Below are positions 258-8,347 of a stretch of 10,718 bases of DNA, one piece after another (position 1 is the first letter of the stretch; every line of letters starts with the position of its first letter). A model generated the notes under the pieces. It did no database searches, was not told where the DNA came from, and saw only the letters and a program-made list of their open reading frames with translations. A program made the position numbers and the translations under genes. This DNA is from Candidatus Iainarchaeum sp. (GTDB taxonomy: Archaea > Iainarchaeota > Iainarchaeia > Iainarchaeales > GW2011-AR10), in the NCBI GenBank assembly GCA_016186855.1, contig JACPKT010000015.1:1-10718 (forward strand), in the 5' to 3' direction.

Positions 258-298
258 GTTGCAGGTGATACCTCTATAGCTTAGCCAGCGAAGCCAGT

Positions 299-349
299 GC
301 CATTGAACGAAGTGAAATGGCGAAAATTTGACAACGGAATTTGCCGTTG
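299..349 (+). repeat. Palindromic two-hairpin element, copy A (diverged)
   Basis: Hairpin 1 pairs GCCATT (299-304) with AATGGC (316-321). A 10-base spacer GAAAATTTGA follows. Hairpin 2 pairs CAACGG (332-337) with CCGTTG (344-349) around the loop AATTTG. The order and composition match copies B (360-405) and C (3129-3175): a GCCAT/ATGGC stem, an AAAA-containing spacer, then a 6-bp stem closed by ATTTTG or AATTTG. A competing small hairpin TTGCC-GAA-GGCAA (347-359) links A to B. Confidence 0.5.
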
Positions 350-359
350 CCGAAGGCAA

Positions 360-405
360 GCGCCATCTTTAGATGGCGCAAAAGTGTCGCGTGATTTTGC
401 ACGCG
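360..405 (+). repeat. Palindromic two-hairpin element, copy B, abutting the tRNA
   Basis: Hairpin 1 is a perfect 9-bp stem, GCGCCATCT (360-368) with AGATGGCGC (371-379), with a 2-base loop. Spacer AAAAGTGT (380-387) follows. Hairpin 2 pairs CGCGTG (388-393) with CACGCG (400-405) around ATTTTG. Copy C at 3129-3175 has an identical spacer and hairpin-2 loop but different stem bases that still pair. The element ends two bases before the first base of the mature tRNA. Confidence 0.65.
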
Positions 406-406
406 T

Positions 407-618
407 GCTGGGGTGGCAGAGTGGTCATGCACCCGCCTGCAGATCCAGTTGCGTCTGGATGACCCGCATACGTCGTCCCGATTTCATCGGGACATAAATA
501 TAATTCCTGTAAATAAAATGGCAATATTACCGCCACATCCTCAGATAGAGCACGTACGCGGCACAACCGGACGCAAGCGGACAGCGGGAGATCGCGAGTT
601 CAAATCTCGCCCCCAGCT
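407..618 (+). tRNA. tRNA-Cys (GCA) interrupted by a 140-base intron
   Basis: Acceptor arms GCTGGGG (407-413) and CCCCAGC (611-617) pair over all 7 bp. T-stem GCGAG/CTCGC (594-598, 606-610) encloses TTCAAAT. Anticodon stem CCCGC (432-436) pairs with GCGGG (584-588). After removal of 443-582 the anticodon loop reads CTGCAGA, so the anticodon is GCA (439-441). The discriminator base is T618; U73 together with GCA is the known identity set for cysteine tRNA. The variable loop AGATC has 5 bases. The D-stem has only three clear pairs (416-418 with 428-430). CCA is not encoded. The gene delivers cysteine to UGU/UGC codons. Confidence 0.93.
443..582 (+). other. tRNA-Cys intron at position 37/38 with bulge-helix-bulge features
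   Basis: The intron lies after position 37 (G442) and before position 38 (A583), the commonest archaeal site. The central BHB helix is CTGC (437-440) with GCGG (577-580), one G-U pair, and the 3' bulge ACA (581-583) is regular. The intron stem is long: TTGCGTCTGG (449-458) pairs with CCGGACGCAA (567-576), one G-U pair. In this fold the 5' bulge is 8 bases (441-448) instead of the standard 3. Inside is a perfect 8-bp hairpin, GTCCCGAT (475-482) with ATCGGGAC (486-493). I see no convincing box C/D or H/ACA guide motif. Confidence 0.8.
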
Positions 619-621
619 TAA

Positions 622-652
622 GGGCATTAGTGCCTCAACCAGCTAATTTTTT
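622..652 (+). terminator. Probable terminator after tRNA-Cys
   Basis: A small hairpin GGGCA (622-626) with TGCCT (631-635), loop TTAG, is followed by an AT stretch with TTTTTT at 647-652. Archaeal termination mainly needs the T-run. The rest of 653-778 is AT-rich and holds no gene I can support. Confidence 0.45.
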
Positions 653-778
653 ACAGTTTAATTTCCGGTTTTGCGTTTTTTGCAGCTTTGAAGCACAACA
701 GCCGCAAGTTCTGGAATAAAACCAGTCCAAAAATCACATGGTTAGTGCATTAGTGTAAAGCTGGGCTCAGTTCTTTTT

Positions 779-1452
779 TTATTTCAACAAATCATTTACA
801 GCAGCTGAAAGCTGTTGGGAAACAAAAATTTCTATAAATGCGGCAAGTAAAAAAATCGGGAGAATAACAATTACAAATGTTTTTAGCAGTTCTGAAAAGA
901 ATTGCATTCTGGTTTTTTCGGGGGCAATTTTTTTATTGAAAAAAAATTTTAGTCCAATCAAAGTACCGAAAATACTGCTTATGATCAGTGCGGGTATTTC
1001 AAGAATGGCATGTGGTAAAAGTGCCAACAGGAAAATAAAAATATTTAAAGCGCTATACCCTGCAATTTTGAAAAAATAATCTGATCCAACTCCAAGGATT
1101 AGGCCATTATAAAAAATAATTAAAGCAGGCAAAATGAATGTCAACCCTGTAACGATTTCAAAAATGCCAGTATATGAATTATTTAAAAAAAGCAGAAAAA
1201 AATCTAAAATGATGTTACCACTGTCAAGATTTTCAAATTTTTTGGTACCATGGCTAAATAATCACCAGTTATTTCTTGAGGCAACAAGAAACCGCTAAAT
1301 AATCCAAGAAAATAAAAAAAAGTCATTGCAATAGTTATTGATTTATTGTTGTTTAAAATTCCCAAAGTATAATTTACATATCTTTCCAGAATATCCTTTA
1401 GCCAACTGTAATTTTGGTTTTTATCAACAAAATTCTTATGCTTTGACGCCAT
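779..1452 (-). pseudogene. SpoIIM-family (DUF95) integral membrane protein, frameshifted
   Basis: Two adjacent minus frames make one protein. The upstream part from ATG 1452 begins MASKHKNF and has a first membrane segment (FFYFLGLFSGFLLP). It breaks near 1235 in the six-base run AAAAAA (CCA-AAA-AAT). One extra A restores FENLDSGNIILDFFLLFL, which runs into LTFILPALIIFYNGLILG and then LLPHAILEIPALIIS, the PH-x3-E-P-A signature of SpoIIM. Repaired length is about 224 residues with roughly five to six membrane helices. GGAGG at 1462-1466 supports the start at 1452; an in-frame ATG at 1542 would overlap the upstream gene by 68 bases. SpoIIM relatives are widespread in archaea and their role there is unclear. 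The break could be an assembly indel or a true mutation. Confidence 0.8.
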
Positions 1453-1474
1453 CAACTCAACCCTCCGACTATTT

Positions 1475-2137
1475 TCAGCTATTTTCTGCTGCAATGCTTT
1501 CAATTCTTGCAGCGCCGTCCCCTTTAAAACCCAAGCAGTCATAGTTTAGCAGCAAAGCACGGAGAGCCGCCATGTCATAAGGCTCTTTTGACAGCACAAG
1601 TTTTAGCATGAGCTTGCTTGCAAGAGACCTTGAAGCCTTAATAGCCTCTGCTGCTGAAGAATTTTTTATGATTTTTAGAGGAATAAGGTTTGACACTTCA
1701 AACACTGGTATGGCAGCAGGGTCCCTTAAGGGGGTTGCCTCAAACTTTTCAACTGTTGGAAACCAAAAATCCTTTGAATAGCCAACAAATACCTGACAGC
1801 CGTTTTCAACAGCCGCGCTTCCAAGACCAACAAGGCACTTGCACGAGCGTGCAAAAGTAATGGAACCCCTCAGCAGATGCGATTCATCTTCGTCCAAAAT
1901 GACCTCATCGTTGTGCCCACAAATCTCTGACTCGCTACCGTGGCCGTTGAAAAACACAAAGTCTGGGGAAATTTTTTCAAGCTTGGCAGTTACTTCCCCT
2001 TTATTTGCTTTATGACCGTCAGCAGTAAATACTTTTACCCCCCTTTCTTTTGCCTTTTCAAGTATTTCTTTGGACCATTCGTAAAGGTACTCCGTTGCCT
2101 TATCGTGCCTTGGCATTGTTACAAACAGTTTGTTCAT
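1475..2137 (-). CDS. Caspase/CHAT-like cysteine protease (clan CD type)
   Basis: The product has 220 residues. The visible signature is a hydrophobic strand leading into FFNGHGS (His66) and, 33 residues on, a strand leading into ITFARSCKC (Cys99), followed by GLGSAAVENGCQVFVGY. This His-then-Cys order, NGHG then A-x-SC, is that of CHAT, caspase-like and gingipain-type clan CD peptidases, so His66 and Cys99 are the inferred catalytic dyad. The N-terminal 60 residues fit a Rossmann-like half. No signal peptide or membrane segment is seen, so it should act in the cytoplasm. Its ATG overlaps the stop of the 2134-2343 gene by 4 bases (ATGA), implying translational coupling. Protease class is fairly secure by motif; substrate and exact family are not known. 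Confidence 0.72.
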   Translation of the reverse strand: MNKLFVTMPRHDKATEYLYEWSKEILEKAKERGVKVFTADGHKANKGEVTAKLEKISPDFVFFNGHGSESEICGHNDEVILDEDESHLLRGSITFARSCKCLVGLGSAAVENGCQVFVGYSKDFWFPTVEKFEATPLRDPAAIPVFEVSNLIPLKIIKNSSAAEAIKASRSLASKLMLKLVLSKEPYDMAALRALLLNYDCLGFKGDGAARIESIAAENS

Positions 2138-2343
2138 TCAATCATCTTTGCAATGTGAGGCATCTTTCGCAAAAAATTTAGCTCCATCTCCTCTGCAGCC
2201 TTGCCCACTTTGCTTCCCTTTTCAACTTCTTGAATAAGTTGGTCGCGGGTAAAAGAGCCATAATCACCAATAGAAAAACTCACGTCTGGCGGAATAGTGC
2301 GAAGCCTTGTAACAACCAGTTTTTTCAAATACTCTTCATCCAT
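2134..2343 (-). CDS. Conserved-looking small protein of the protease operon
   Basis: The product has 69 residues from ATG 2343 (MDEEYLKKLVVTRLRTIPP). A helical start is followed by a short strand DVSFSIGDYGSF and a helical end rich in charged residues (LIQEVEKGSKVGKAAEEMEL). GGTGAT just upstream and the matching start MDEDYLRKLVVARL in the decayed copy at 3949-4067 support this ATG over an in-frame GTG a few codons earlier. It begins one base after the upstream stop and ends in a 4-base overlap with the protease gene. The existence of a second, decayed copy shows it is a real protein family. I do not recognise a named domain; a regulator or adaptor of the protease is only inference from gene order. 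Confidence 0.75.
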   Translation of the reverse strand: MDEEYLKKLVVTRLRTIPPDVSFSIGDYGSFTRDQLIQEVEKGSKVGKAAEEMELNFLRKMPHIAKMIE

Positions 2344-2344
2344 T

Positions 2345-2563
2345 TCAATCACCAAGCAAGTTAAGGCTATCTATGTGCCTCAGTATCTCATCGCCCTTTT
2401 TGGTTTGGCCTTTTATCTCAATGTGGGCGGCAGACCAAGTAAACGGCTCGTCACCTATCACAGCCACTATTTCGTCCCTCATGTTAAGAGGTACTGCTGC
2501 ATAAGCTCTTAAAAACTTGGAACGCAAAACCTCAATATTTTTTTCTTTGACCATCTCAATCAT
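2345..2563 (-). CDS. Small protein, first gene of the protease operon
   Basis: The frame opens at ATG 2581, but the TATA-like TTTAAATAA at 2598-2590 would place transcription start near 2568, so ATG 2563 (MIEMVKEKN, 72 residues) is preferred. The protein is soluble and mixed alpha/beta: a Lys/Arg-rich helix (VLRSKFLRAYAAVP), then MRDEIVAVIGDEPFTWSAA and HIEIKGQTKKGDEILRHI. The D-E-P-F-T-W turn followed by a strand and a Lys-rich helix suggests a compact fold of 60-70 residues. It is separated from the next gene by one base. Function unknown; the operon places it with a caspase-like protease. The reading is firm, the start less so. Confidence 0.7.
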   Translation of the reverse strand: MIEMVKEKNIEVLRSKFLRAYAAVPLNMRDEIVAVIGDEPFTWSAAHIEIKGQTKKGDEILRHIDSLNLLGD

Positions 2564-2589
2564 CCCTAAAAAAGGGTTCATTAAAACTT

Positions 2590-2598
2590 ATTTAAAAT
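2590..2598 (-). promoter_or_regulatory. TATA-like box of the protease operon
   Basis: Read on the minus strand the sequence is TTTAAATAA. It lies about 27-31 bases upstream of ATG 2563, the spacing expected for a leaderless or near-leaderless archaeal transcript. No T-rich terminator is visible between the four genes downstream. Confidence 0.45.
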
Positions 2599-2708
2599 TG
2601 GTCTTTCCACTAAAAGCATATAGTAGAAAGCATTTATAGAATAAAAACCTTCTCGCCAAAAAAAGGGGTTTTGAGGTAGTTTTTGACTTCCGCTGCAACG
2701 AGCCGGTT

Positions 2709-2752
2709 TTTTATAATCAGGATTATAAAATTTTATAATCTAGATTATAAAC
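2709..2752. promoter_or_regulatory. Twin 22-base palindromes, likely tandem operator
   Basis: Site 1 is TTTTATAATC (2709-2718), AG, GATTATAAAA (2721-2730): a perfect 10-bp inverted repeat. Site 2 follows with no gap: TTTTATAATC (2731-2740), TA, GATTATAAAC (2743-2752), perfect over 9 bp. The centre-to-centre distance is 22 bases, about two helical turns, so two dimers would sit on the same DNA face. The sites lie in the 325-base gap between two divergent units, the protease operon (minus) and the toxin-antitoxin pair (plus). The rest of 2599-2838 is AT-rich with no gene I can support. Confidence 0.6.
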
Positions 2753-2838
2753 GGAAAAACCAATGGTTTGGGTTGTTTAAATTTTTCAAAAATCCGCCAA
2801 ACTTGAACTGCAGCGCCCGTATCCCGCCCCCAGCTTTT

Positions 2839-2864
2839 GATATCTCAAGATATCTTTAAATATC
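2839..2864 (+). promoter_or_regulatory. Promoter region of the toxin-antitoxin-like pair
   Basis: GATATC (2839-2844), TCAA, GATATC (2849-2854) form a small inverted repeat directly followed by the TATA-like TTTAAATATC (2855-2864). Initiation would be expected near 2885, just before the TTG codons at 2890 and 2893. The repeat touching the TATA box could be an autoregulatory operator (inference). Confidence 0.45.
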
Positions 2865-2889
2865 TGTTTCTTCATAATTTTATTGTGGT

Positions 2890-3109
2890 TTGTTGCTTAA
2901 AGGAAAATATGAAATCATAATAAAGCGGCACGCGTTTATTCAAGCAATGAAGCGTGGAATAAGCCCAGATATTATTGAAGACACAATAAACCAAGGCAAA
3001 ATGAAACACTTTGGAAAAAAAGTTTCGAAAAATGACAGTGATTTGCGTTGATGAAATCATTGGACATGTCATAAAAATTGTGACAATCGTGAGGAAGGTG
3101 AAAAAATGA
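2890..3109 (+). pseudogene. DUF4258-like (RelE-like) toxin gene, frameshifted
   Basis: From TTG 2890 or 2893 the frame reads KYEIIIKRHAFIQAMKRGIS, then PDIIEDTINQGKMKHFGKK, and stops at 3049-3051. The next frame carries RKMTVICVDEIIGHVIKIVT followed by IVRKVKK and ends at 3109. Removing one A from the seven-A run in GGAAAAAAAG (near 3014-3021) joins them into about 70 residues. The strand-His-helix start (IIIKRHA), the RGI-S-P-x-x-I turn, FGKK and the late ICVDEI and IKIVTIVRK strands are the pattern of DUF4258 proteins, small RelE-like putative RNases often encoded just before a YgiT-type zinc-ribbon protein, as here. A toxin role is inferred from family and neighbour. Indel error is possible. 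Confidence 0.6.
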
Positions 3110-3190
3110 ATGTGAGCGGAGAGAACAAGCGCCATACAAAGTATGGCGCAAAAGTGTCAACTGATTTTGCAGTTGAGGTGAAAAAATGAA
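3096..3190 (+). repeat. 15-base direct repeats flanking inserted element C
   Basis: AGGTGAAAAAATGAA occurs at 3096-3110 and again, identical, at 3176-3190, exactly 80 bases apart. The first copy holds the toxin stop, the second the ribosome site and ATG of the antitoxin. Deleting one period restores a normal ATGA overlap of toxin stop and antitoxin start. The inserted stretch also leaves an open frame of 27 codons (3106-3189, begins MNVSGENKRH) whose start and stop overlap its neighbours by the same ATGA, so coupling could survive. Whether that peptide is made is unknown. Confidence 0.65.
3129..3175 (+). repeat. Palindromic two-hairpin element, copy C
   Basis: Hairpin 1 pairs GCGCCATAC (3129-3137) with GTATGGCGC (3141-3149), a perfect 9-bp stem with loop AAA. 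The 8-base spacer AAAAGTGT (3150-3157) is identical to copy B. Hairpin 2 pairs CAACTG (3158-3163) with CAGTTG (3170-3175) around ATTTTG. Compared with copy B, all differing stem bases change in pairs. Confidence 0.65.
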
Positions 3191-3482
3191 ATGCACTAAA
3201 TGCAGCTCAAAAATGGAAGAAAAAAAAGATGAAACGCCAGAAGGGGTTAGCTATACCTATTTTGCCTGCACAAATTGTGGAGAAGAAATAGTTGACATGA
3301 AACAATTGCACTCAGTGGCACAAAAATACAGGGAACTAAAAAAATATGTTGCAACTGTTTCAAAATGGGGAGAAAGCATAGCGATAAGAATACCGAAAGA
3401 ATTAGCAGAAGAATACGGGTTAAAACCAAACAAACGAGTTAATTTGATTCCTGAAAAAGAGGCAATTAAAATAACCGCATAA
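3186..3482 (+). CDS. Zinc-ribbon + SpoVT/AbrB domain protein, likely antitoxin/repressor
   Basis: The product has 98 residues. The N-terminus has a four-cysteine zinc ribbon, CTKC (Cys3, Cys6) and CTNC (Cys28, Cys31), of the YgiT/MqsA style. A helical linker follows (residues 38-53). Residues 54-98 form a swapped-hairpin AbrB/MazE domain: ATVSKWGESIAIRIPKELAE, then a GLKPN turn and a final strand. AbrB dimers bind palindromic DNA, so this protein is a good candidate to bind the nearby palindromes and to neutralise the DUF4258-like partner encoded upstream. AGGTG sits 5 bases before ATG 3186. Family assignments rest on motifs; the antitoxin role is inferred from order and domains. Confidence 0.82.
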   Translation: MKCTKCSSKMEEKKDETPEGVSYTYFACTNCGEEIVDMKQLHSVAQKYRELKKYVATVSKWGESIAIRIPKELAEEYGLKPNKRVNLIPEKEAIKITA

Positions 3483-3518: not shown

Positions 3519-3926
3519 ATGTGGAAGGATTTGGCACCAAACCTGACAAGGCAAAGGCTAATTATTGAAGGCACAACTGAAAAAATAGTTGAACCCGCCC
3601 AGATCAAGGACTATTTGAAAAAGCTTTCACATCTCATTGGAATGAAAGCAAAAGGTGAAGTTCTAACATATTCAGCAGAAGAGCCACCAAAAGACGGGAA
3701 ATGGAGTTCACTAAACATGGGCTATGCCGGCTGGCTTTATTGGATTTCTTCAGGCGTACATTTCCACTCTTATCCGACTAACCCACCAATTTTTAGCGTT
3801 GACGCTTATACATGCAAGCCATTTTCAGTTGAAAAAGCTGTCCAGTTCACAAAAAAATATTTCAACACAAAGGAAATCGTTTGGAAAGATTTATCATCAA
3901 GAGGCAAGCTTTCATTCAGCCAATGA
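3519..3926 (+). CDS. Pyruvoyl-dependent decarboxylase of the SpeD (AdoMetDC) family
   Basis: The product has 135 residues, close to the usual prokaryotic SpeD length. The region WISSGVHFHSYP followed by FSVDAYTCKPF aligns with the SpeD active site (SESH...IHTWPE...VDVFTC). Ser78 would be the self-cleaving residue that becomes pyruvoyl, His83 the processing His and Cys99 the catalytic acid. The residue after Ser78 is Gly, where classical SpeD has His. SpeD makes decarboxylated AdoMet for spermidine synthesis; some SpeD homologues in bacteria and archaea have instead been shown to decarboxylate arginine or ornithine, and the changed active-site loop and N-terminus (KDLAPNLTRQRL) make such a change of substrate possible here. 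No spermidine synthase gene is in the window. Confidence 0.75.
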   Translation: MWKDLAPNLTRQRLIIEGTTEKIVEPAQIKDYLKKLSHLIGMKAKGEVLTYSAEEPPKDGKWSSLNMGYAGWLYWISSGVHFHSYPTNPPIFSVDAYTCKPFSVEKAVQFTKKYFNTKEIVWKDLSSRGKLSFSQ

Positions 3927-3948: not shown

Positions 3949-4067
3949 TACTTCTTGGATTAGCTGGTCTCTTGTAAAGTACCAAAACCTGAAATCCAAA
4001 GACTCAGTTCCGGCGGAATTGCATTAAGTCTTGCAACCACAAGCTTTCTCAAATAATCTTCATCCAT
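3949..4067 (-). pseudogene. Decayed paralogue of the 69-residue protease-operon protein
   Basis: From ATG 4067 on the minus strand the reading is MDEDYLRKLVVARLNAIPP, then ELSLWISGFGTLQETS and a stop at 3960-3962. Against the intact gene at 2134-2343 (MDEEYLKKLVVTRLRTIPP...SIGDYGSFTRDQLIQEV) it is clearly the same family. After FGT the frame slips by one; the other frame then reads TRDQLIQEV down to 3949, identical to the intact copy, after which similarity ends abruptly. It thus lacks one base and the last 30 or so residues. No partner genes of the operon accompany it. It may be the scar of a second copy of the cassette. Confidence 0.75.
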
Positions 4068-4143
4068 TCAAAACACCAAACAATTAACGATTTTTAATTA
4101 TAAATTCATATCATTGGACCTTTGGAAAAACGTTCAAGTAACC

Positions 4144-8132: not shown

Positions 8133-8200
8133 TAAACAAGGTTAGATATTTAATAGTATTGCAATAAAAAAACGAAAAGATTCGTTTGCAATCCATACCT

Positions 8201-8262
8201 GCCCTGCTTTTAGCAGGGCGATAATATGAAGATAATTTTGGATGACCATGAAAAAAACCCTT
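8201..8262 (+). repeat. Leader repeat, copy 1 (hairpin + 44-base conserved block)
   Basis: Hairpin GCCCTGC (8201-8207), TTTTA, GCAGGGC (8213-8219) leads into a 44-base block (8219-8262) that ends with ATGAAAAAAACCCTT. The block matches copy 2 at 41 of 44 positions. The ATG at 8248 opens a frame beginning MKKTLAGVYAAYMAFLRK that runs across copy 2 in a different frame; it looks like the remnant of a duplicated gene start, not a real gene. Confidence 0.65.
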
Positions 8263-8285
8263 GCGGGAGTTTACGCCGCATACAT

Positions 8286-8347
8286 GGCCTTTCTGCGAAA
8301 GGCCGATAATAGGAATATAAATTTGGATGACCATGAAAAAAACCCTT
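8286..8347 (+). repeat. Leader repeat, copy 2, at the lipoprotein start
   Basis: Hairpin GGCCTTT (8286-8292), CTGCG, AAAGGCC (8298-8304) leads into the second 44-base block (8304-8347), 85 bases after the first. It holds AATATAAAT (8314-8322) and GGATGACC just before the lipoprotein ATG at 8333. The hairpin differs almost entirely in sequence from copy 1 but keeps a 7-bp stem, a 5-base loop and the same place relative to the block. Confidence 0.65.

Follow-up and report, generated by a model that had tools for sequence, protein, structure and literature searches.

The stretch of DNA analysed here, which we call the window, comprises 10,718 nucleotides of contig JACPKT010000015.1 from the archaeon Candidatus Iainarchaeum sp. 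(assembly GCA_016186855.1), and it carries three copies, A, B and C, of a short double-hairpin element (Table 1). An RNase P RNA match of archaeal type (below the curated score), a gene for ribosomal L16/L10e and tRNAs with introns are signs of an archaeal source, and the sizes of the genomes would suggest the DPANN group. Copies A and B lie close together upstream of a transfer RNA (tRNA) gene, tRNA-Cys, while copy C stands directly upstream of a gene for a MazE-type antitoxin. The tRNA-Cys gene was reported by ARAGORN only when introns were allowed, the default run of the window having returned no tRNA, and its intron contains an extra hairpin at about 475–495. An earlier note, made from the letters of the window alone, had described three two-hairpin copies, and these do exist and fold as it said, with shuffle z-scores of −2.24 for A, −3.47 for B and −4.73 for C, each better than the shuffle mean. 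Read toward its fixed end, the element opens with a tail whose length varies, followed by stem 1, then a short linker and lastly stem 2, for a total of about 50–145 bp. Stem 1 differs in sequence and length from genome to genome, the linker has 8–10 letters (for example AAAAGTGT), and stem 2 is usually 6 pairs long with a loop that usually has 6 nt (for example ATTTTG).

Table 1. Features of the window that bear on the double-hairpin element (columns: feature, positions, strand, details, support)
Copy A	297..349	+	stem 1 ~297-304/315-322, inner loop GAACGAAGTGA; linker 323-331; stem 2 332-337/344-349, loop AATTTG	covariance-model match 295-351, E 2.6e-12
Copy B	360..405	+	stem 1 360-368/371-379; linker 380-387; stem 2 388-393/400-405; loop 394-399	covariance-model match 358-407, E 5.1e-17
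tRNA-Cys(GCA) gene with 140-nt intron	407..618	+	1 letter from stem-2 foot of copy B	ARAGORN, introns allowed
Upstream target duplication of copy C, 15 bp, AGGTGAAAAAATGAA	3096..3110	+		direct-repeat comparison
5' tail of copy C insert, variable part	3111..3128	+		65-nt insert between direct repeats
Copy C	3129..3175	+	stem 1 3129-3137/3141-3149; linker 3150-3157; stem 2 3158-3163/3170-3175; loop 3164-3169	covariance-model match 3127-3177, E 4.1e-18
Downstream target duplication of copy C, 15 bp	3176..3190	+	start codon of next gene inside	
MazE-type antitoxin gene, 3' of copy C	3186..3482	+	orthologues served the empty-site test	PF04014, E 4.4e-9

The compensating stem changes that the earlier note had seen between copies B and C were confirmed: the two share an identical linker, AAAAGTGT, and an identical loop, ATTTTG, and differ in both stems by compensated pairs. 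A search pattern derived from B and C, in which three stem letters were left open and the partners of these letters were not part of the pattern, hit the source genome at 13 places, copies B and C among them, whereas the reversed pattern hit nothing. At these places the open letters paired with their partners in 38 of 39 cases, 12 of the 13 copies pairing completely, compared with 284 of 468 cases after partners had been swapped between copies. We then have an alignment of 15 copies, A2 (15 of 18 candidate rows, three near-duplicates having been dropped), in which 98.1% of cells pair, 10 of 15 pairs are changed on both sides, and the covariation score was reached by none of 500 shuffles, all of these figures being subject to the caveat that several rows came from a script that demanded pairing. 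RNAalifold, unaided, drew the same two stems, and in 9 of its 14 pairs both partners are changed. The rows of a larger alignment, A3 (30 rows), were partly chosen by a script demanding five paired letters, and because of this its pairing is no independent test. The conclusion that the folded form matters is supported by these paired changes.

The earlier note had also taken the element to be interspersed and copied, and had named a want of further copies in the source genome, or stem changes that were not paired, as findings that would speak against it. Both of these checks came out in its favour. In the source genome (816,866 bases, 60% complete), a full covariance model built from the 15 copies of A2 gave 35 matches (E ≤ 0.0012) on 20 contigs, which is a lower bound, since 150 of 895 first-look candidates were scored. 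Seven head-to-head pairs, with the feet of stem 1 nearly touching, were found on contigs C24, C32, C146, C66, C11, C74 and C6 (genomes, contigs and loci are cited by our own G, C and L handles). The full model matched 19 of 143 genomes, source included, at E ≤ 0.01, and a core model of linker and stem 2 matched 12 of 75 genomes of the order (E ≤ 0.001), 10 of 87 genomes of the phylum (E ≤ 1e-4) and 15 of 198 relatives of the distant archaeon G116 (E ≤ 1e-4). Relatives of the element are present in other archaeal families. These genome sets overlap and searches of more than 40 genomes ran under stricter filters, and the counts are thus lower bounds.

Two sets of copies were used for the comparisons that follow. 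The first set holds 75 copies, 27 of the 35 source-genome matches and 48 from relatives; left out were eight weaker, truncated or long-form source-genome matches, single hits in G045, G076, G074, G018, G120 and G069, one hit in G040 (C37) and a duplicate locus in G116 (C5:41). The second set comprises 22 copies, that is, all previously unseen matches from the core-model search of the relatives of G116, and its copies are not independent, because 9 of the 22 come from G229 and are near-identical and tandem. In the long form mentioned above, linker and stem 2 are separated by a hairpin of roughly 50 nt, CAACAAATTGAC...GTCAATTTGTTG (C154, at about 744–796 of locus L213; also on C6, C151 and C66), and on C151 the arms of this hairpin differ by a compensated change. 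Spread by viruses was considered and rejected: three scans of viral contigs with an exact pattern gave 12, 1 and 0 stretches, of which the 12 scored at most 19.9 bits and the single stretch lay inside a coding sequence of a contig that is phage-like by eye. A pattern scan of a genome collection, source genome excluded, gave 45 stretches, the best at 34.7 bits with the covariance model; the six stretches with alignments came from bacterial records and had unpaired stem positions. An Rfam scan of the window gave no match, and neither there nor in the open-access literature, among the matches listed, did we find a named archaeal element of such form, in keeping with what the earlier note had said. 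The family is real, mobile and, as far as searched, undescribed in archaea.

A further regularity is that, in one copy after another, linker and stem-2 loop are complementary and change together. The linker/loop pairs in the source genome are CAAAA/TTTTG, CAAATT/AATTTG, CTAAAT/ATTTAG and CAAAG/CTTTG, and those in G001 are AGGT/ACCT, ACCT/AGGT and CAAGGT/ACTTTG, the last with one G-T pair. Across 59 distinct combinations the mean complementarity was 9.2, compared with 8.08 (sd 0.21) after swaps, and none of 2000 swaps reached 9.2; the script used for this comparison detected stem 2 in 73 of the 75 copies. The members of a head-to-head pair may differ in linker type, each fitting its own loop (C24, C32, C66, C146). 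Since the loop runs straight into the 3′ arm of stem 2, one molecule could hardly hold a complete linker–loop helix and a complete stem 2 at once, and an ordinary H-type pseudoknot was not accepted for the same want of separating letters. The matching may instead act as a switch, or may reflect pairing between molecules.

We looked for direct repeats around the copies by comparing the 45 letters after stem 2 with the 160 letters before the core at a score cut-off of at least 28, with a stretch 420–580 letters upstream in the same locus as a control. In the first set, 14 of the 75 copies had such repeats, whereas swapped comparisons gave 2 of 886 and the same-locus control 0 of 66; for 13 of the 14, the downstream repeat started between −1 and +7 nt from the foot of stem 2. 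The second set gave 8 of 22, compared with 4 of 376 swapped comparisons and 0 of 22 same-locus controls, with starts at −1 to +2 in 7 of the 8. In the one remaining case of each set (C32, and C2 of G229), the repeats start at least 20 letters from stem 2 and reflect other repeats. The duplications are 14 to about 40 bp long, and the inserts between the repeats of the first set measure 52–145 nt, constant at the 3′ end, which lies at stem 2, and variable at the 5′ start. Examples include a 26-letter repeat with 24 identical letters on C134, a 20/20 repeat on C33, a repeat in G027 that equals the first 20 letters of tRNA-Met, and one in G046 that looks by eye like the final codons of a gene. There is also a nested insertion, in which copy C11:28 sits at the stem-2 foot of another copy with a 16-bp duplication (15 identical). 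Within the variable 5′ tail, a GCGAGC-like module was present in 15 of 65 copies, compared with 103 of 3,730 control positions (in this count, 32 of 97 copies had no stem 1 under the strict rule of the script).

Copy C of the window itself arrived by insertion, as seen from its flanking repeats and from empty orthologous sites. It forms the final 47 letters of a 65-letter insert flanked by two copies of AGGTGAAAAAATGAA. Antitoxin matches were present in 24 of 113 genomes, source included, and among the loci of 11 relatives with an orthologue, two without a readable start being left out, the two-gene operon was uninterrupted in all nine, the upstream partner (recognised by eye) and the start of the antitoxin gene being adjacent. 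In the window, no plus-strand open reading frame of at least 60 aa is listed for this upstream partner, which therefore seems to be broken there. We hold it to be very likely that this is a mobile element inserted with target duplication. As an observation apart, a composite repeat, AAACGGCTGGC...GTTTACACGCC, holds the head-to-head pair on C24 and C66 and lacks it on C32 (about 1395–1430), a possible empty site within the genome.

We also examined where the copies land. With ARAGORN, introns allowed, the stem-2 foot lay within 2 nt of a tRNA gene end in 18 of the 75 copies of the first set, a distance shared by 7 of 14,923 control positions from these loci; 12 of the 18 were at 5′ ends and six at 3′ ends. 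In the source genome these are the tRNA-Cys after window copy B, the tRNA-Trp on C24 and the tRNA-Ser on C25, while a tRNA-Leu on C154 stands at offset 0 to a long-form copy outside the 75. The preference for tRNA ends is thus strong in the first set, and it is mixed in the second. At non-tRNA targets, hairpins starting at the junction were slightly in excess when random positions of the same loci served as the control (Mann-Whitney p 6e-4): 23 of 54 targets exceeded the 75th percentile of the control and 5 of 54 its 90th percentile, the latter being about chance level. Hairpin-foot targeting was rejected as a general rule, and we state the preference as one for tRNA ends rather than hairpins because the shift at non-tRNA targets is so slight. 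The same slight excess would suit an account without any dedicated mover, in which replication forks stall at hairpins and tRNA genes, and the nascent strand copies an element at another place before coming back, so that the target is left duplicated. Such stalling would account for the fixed entry, the ragged exit and the length and variability of the duplications, and also for why no enzyme is known, but it sits poorly with the chance-level figure at the 90th percentile and would not, by itself, conserve one particular structure across distant genomes, and we regard it as rather improbable.

Copies are found inside structural RNAs as well. Three genomes have copies inside tRNA introns according to ARAGORN (G009, G094, G195), and a fourth, G116, has them by eye, ARAGORN being blind to introns outside the anticodon loop. 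A bulge-helix-bulge motif was drawn by eye, without program scoring, for a single tRNA in each of G116 and G094; the majority of copies lie outside introns. In two families, copies lie within the ribonuclease P (RNase P) RNA, namely in G016 (RF00373, 89.2 bits) and in the source genome (a match of 50.8 bits, which falls short of the curated score), in both near the conserved 3′ region, and G001 has a weak element match just past the end of its RNase P RNA. The RNase P insertion site measures from 16 to more than 100 letters among relatives (29 loci, two without a readable motif), and because its length varies so widely, the idea that the copies are excised from RNase P RNA at the RNA level was dropped.

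These locations raise the question of whether the element is a functional RNA, such as a tRNA leader, an intron element or a processing signal, selected at tRNA and RNase P genes, with the dispersed copies as by-products. The covarying stems and the linker–loop matching would be expected of such an RNA, as would copies at the same place beside tRNA-Cys in the source genome and G046 and beside tRNA-Trp in the source genome and G071, and copies inside RNase P RNA in two families. Yet only 20 of the 75 copies lie at a tRNA end or inside a tRNA gene (ARAGORN), the tRNAs hit largely differ between genomes, the RNase P site differs widely in length, and insertion with target duplication and an empty site points elsewhere, so that we hold a selected RNA of this kind to be very improbable.

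Protein genes, by comparison, are seldom involved. The earlier note had likened the element to the palindromes that enter genes in Rickettsia, elements that PMC10969869 and PMC3767692 describe as inserting in frame in protein-coding genes, as a large share of their copies do. Copies B and C do both read A-K-V-S-x-D-F-A, copies lengthen the 3′ end of a frame on C130, and by eye a copy stands at the end of a frame in G046. However, of the 27 source-genome copies tested, a convincing gene holds one (on C130, where it sits at the very 3′ end), another is near the start, itself doubtful, of a 487-aa frame (on C102), and for the remaining 25 no overlapping open frame exceeds 121 aa. This part of the earlier note is therefore largely refuted, a protein-coding palindrome of the Rickettsia type being extremely improbable; in our opinion, B and C share the peptide because the letters of linker and loop are conserved. 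At 3611–3703 of C130 we noted a 163-aa frame whose last part is encoded by two element copies and whose start resembles ribosomal protein uL24 by eye.

The remaining question is what moves the element. One answer would be that it is the remnant of a DNA transposon, akin to miniature inverted-repeat transposable elements (MITEs), moved by an integrase or transposase encoded elsewhere that makes cuts with a long stagger at tRNA ends, in the manner of casposases and tRNA-targeting integrases. Enzymes of this sort typically leave target duplications and act at tRNA ends (see also PMC3293823); in G027, G081, G105 and G040, duplications extend, by eye, from the end of a tRNA roughly as far as its D-loop or T-loop, and the seven head-to-head pairs, with stem 2 at both outer ends, resemble inverted termini. 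Single copies, however, have no fixed 5′ end, and the length of the duplication varies. Cas1 (PF01867) was detected in 1 of 21 genomes (G081), and Y1 transposase (PF01797) was found in 5 of 20 genomes examined but neither in the source genome nor in the 99%-complete G001, in a search that did not extend to tyrosine and serine recombinases or DDE transposases. We consider a transposon of this kind unlikely, if by no means negligible.

The explanation that we favour, although our confidence in it falls just short of calling it probable, is primed copying, which we propose because the fixed stem-2 end, the ragged far end and the long, variable duplications fit the traces of such a process. SINEs (short interspersed nuclear elements) and other retroposons without long terminal repeats (non-LTR) insert by primed copying from the 3′ end of a nicked target, with a variable stop. 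By analogy, the archaeal element would be non-autonomous and would enter new sites by copying from its stem-2 end. A nick in the target would supply the 3′ end that primes the copying of the element; copying would begin at the stem-2 foot and break off at variable points upstream, leaving a ragged 5′ end; and a cut in the second strand some 14–40 bp away would give rise to the target duplication, tRNA gene ends being the favoured sites. The template would most likely be the RNA of the element, and the folded stems may be the mark recognised by the copying enzyme. In this account it is the direction of copying, the priming at the nick and the RNA template that we infer.

Several observations weigh against such an interpretation. 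At the score cut-off used, 61 of 75 and 14 of 22 copies had no repeat, and a common tail between stem 2 and the repeat was not seen in the inserts of the first set. Linker–loop matching was weaker in G001 alone, where 41 of 2000 swaps were as high (six combinations), and, by the geometry described above, the matching would hardly be compatible with a complete stem 2 in one molecule. The second set had 1 of 22 copies at a tRNA end, compared with 6 of 4,388 control positions (ARAGORN), and in three of its cases (C42 of G229, one C52 copy of G175, and G146) an intact tRNA lies upstream of the element and a repeat of the tRNA end follows stem 2, from which it follows that the element can sit in either orientation. 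A reverse transcriptase (PF00078) was not found in 20 of 21 genomes, many of them incomplete, the exception being G081; 17 of the 21 carry the element, two of those being 98–99% complete. Finally, identical marks would be expected if a cellular polymerase had switched templates and copied DNA. Separately, we observed that the G081 matches are two very long frames, of 1607 and 1876 aa on its contigs C1 and C8, both with a reverse transcriptase domain and the only matches in the 21 genomes.

Set beside known systems, the element may first be compared with SINEs and other non-LTR retroposons. Like them, it has a constant structured 3′ end, a ragged 5′ end and target duplications that are long and vary in length, and it carries no gene of its own; it differs from them in being archaeal, in having no tail that we could see, in occurring where reverse transcriptase was mostly not found and in its frequent head-to-head pairs. 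In bacteria, several families of short palindromes are linked with a transposase that has been identified. Repetitive extragenic palindromes (REP) and bacterial interspersed mosaic elements (BIME), with their REP-associated tyrosine (RAYT, Y1) transposases, are likewise short, dispersed, often inverted in pairs and mostly intergenic, whereas our element is a two-hairpin unit with linker–loop matching and long target duplications, and the source genome (60% complete) and G001 gave no Y1 match. The Rickettsia elements are similarly palindromic and dispersed with a readable peptide frame, but the archaeal copies are outside protein genes save for the two cases given, and RNA genes are frequent targets. 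Prokaryotic MITEs are also short and non-autonomous and make target duplications, although single copies of our element have no apparent terminal inverted repeats (by eye, 14 inserts), a variable 5′ end and a tendency to target tRNA ends. Casposons share the archaeal host, the target duplications and the tRNA gene ends; our element differs in having no genes and, as single copies, no inverted termini, and in the near absence of Cas1 from the genomes searched. Some copies lie in tRNA introns, as archaeal bulge-helix-bulge introns do, while most are outside introns. PMC3293823 reports tRNA intron gain through mobile elements in Caldiarchaeum, and PMC11782384 deals with direct repeats at intron borders in general.

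Other repeats were noticed along the way. A second hairpin family consists of a stem-loop followed by a GATAATA-like stretch, with an ATG about 30 nt further on in several places; it occurs at 8190–8230 and 8283–8316 of the window, where it falls within a direct repeat of 48 nt (92% identical), and on C24, C32, C66, C6, C74 and C154 of the source genome. Other inserts, with a CCTTTT...AAAAGG hairpin and a G+A-rich, GCGAAAA-like tail, recur at RNase P loci (L152, L171) and inside tRNA genes of relatives or close to them (tRNA-Trp locus L193; L185). The window also holds a 108-nt direct repeat, 73% identical, at 2252–2359 and 3976–4083, the first copy of which overlaps an open frame on the minus strand.

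The targeting of tRNA ends, the fixed stem-2 end with target duplication and the linker–loop complementarity go beyond what the earlier note had claimed. This archaeal family combines a conserved two-hairpin fold, linkers that match their own loops and a SINE-like insertion layout, within genomes most of which gave no match to reverse transcriptase or Cas1, and it points to some other copying or integration activity. It is possible, though on the doubtful side, that the element is an archaeal SINE, that is, a structured RNA parasite rewritten into the chromosome by primed copying, often at tRNA ends, through an enzyme other than the recognised reverse transcriptases, and seeding tRNA introns and RNase P RNA insertions across several archaeal lineages. 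A repeat at the tRNA end keeps the tRNA gene whole, which would be a simple reason for its possible spread in very small genomes. The element offers a source of new tRNA introns and of insertions in structural RNAs in archaea.

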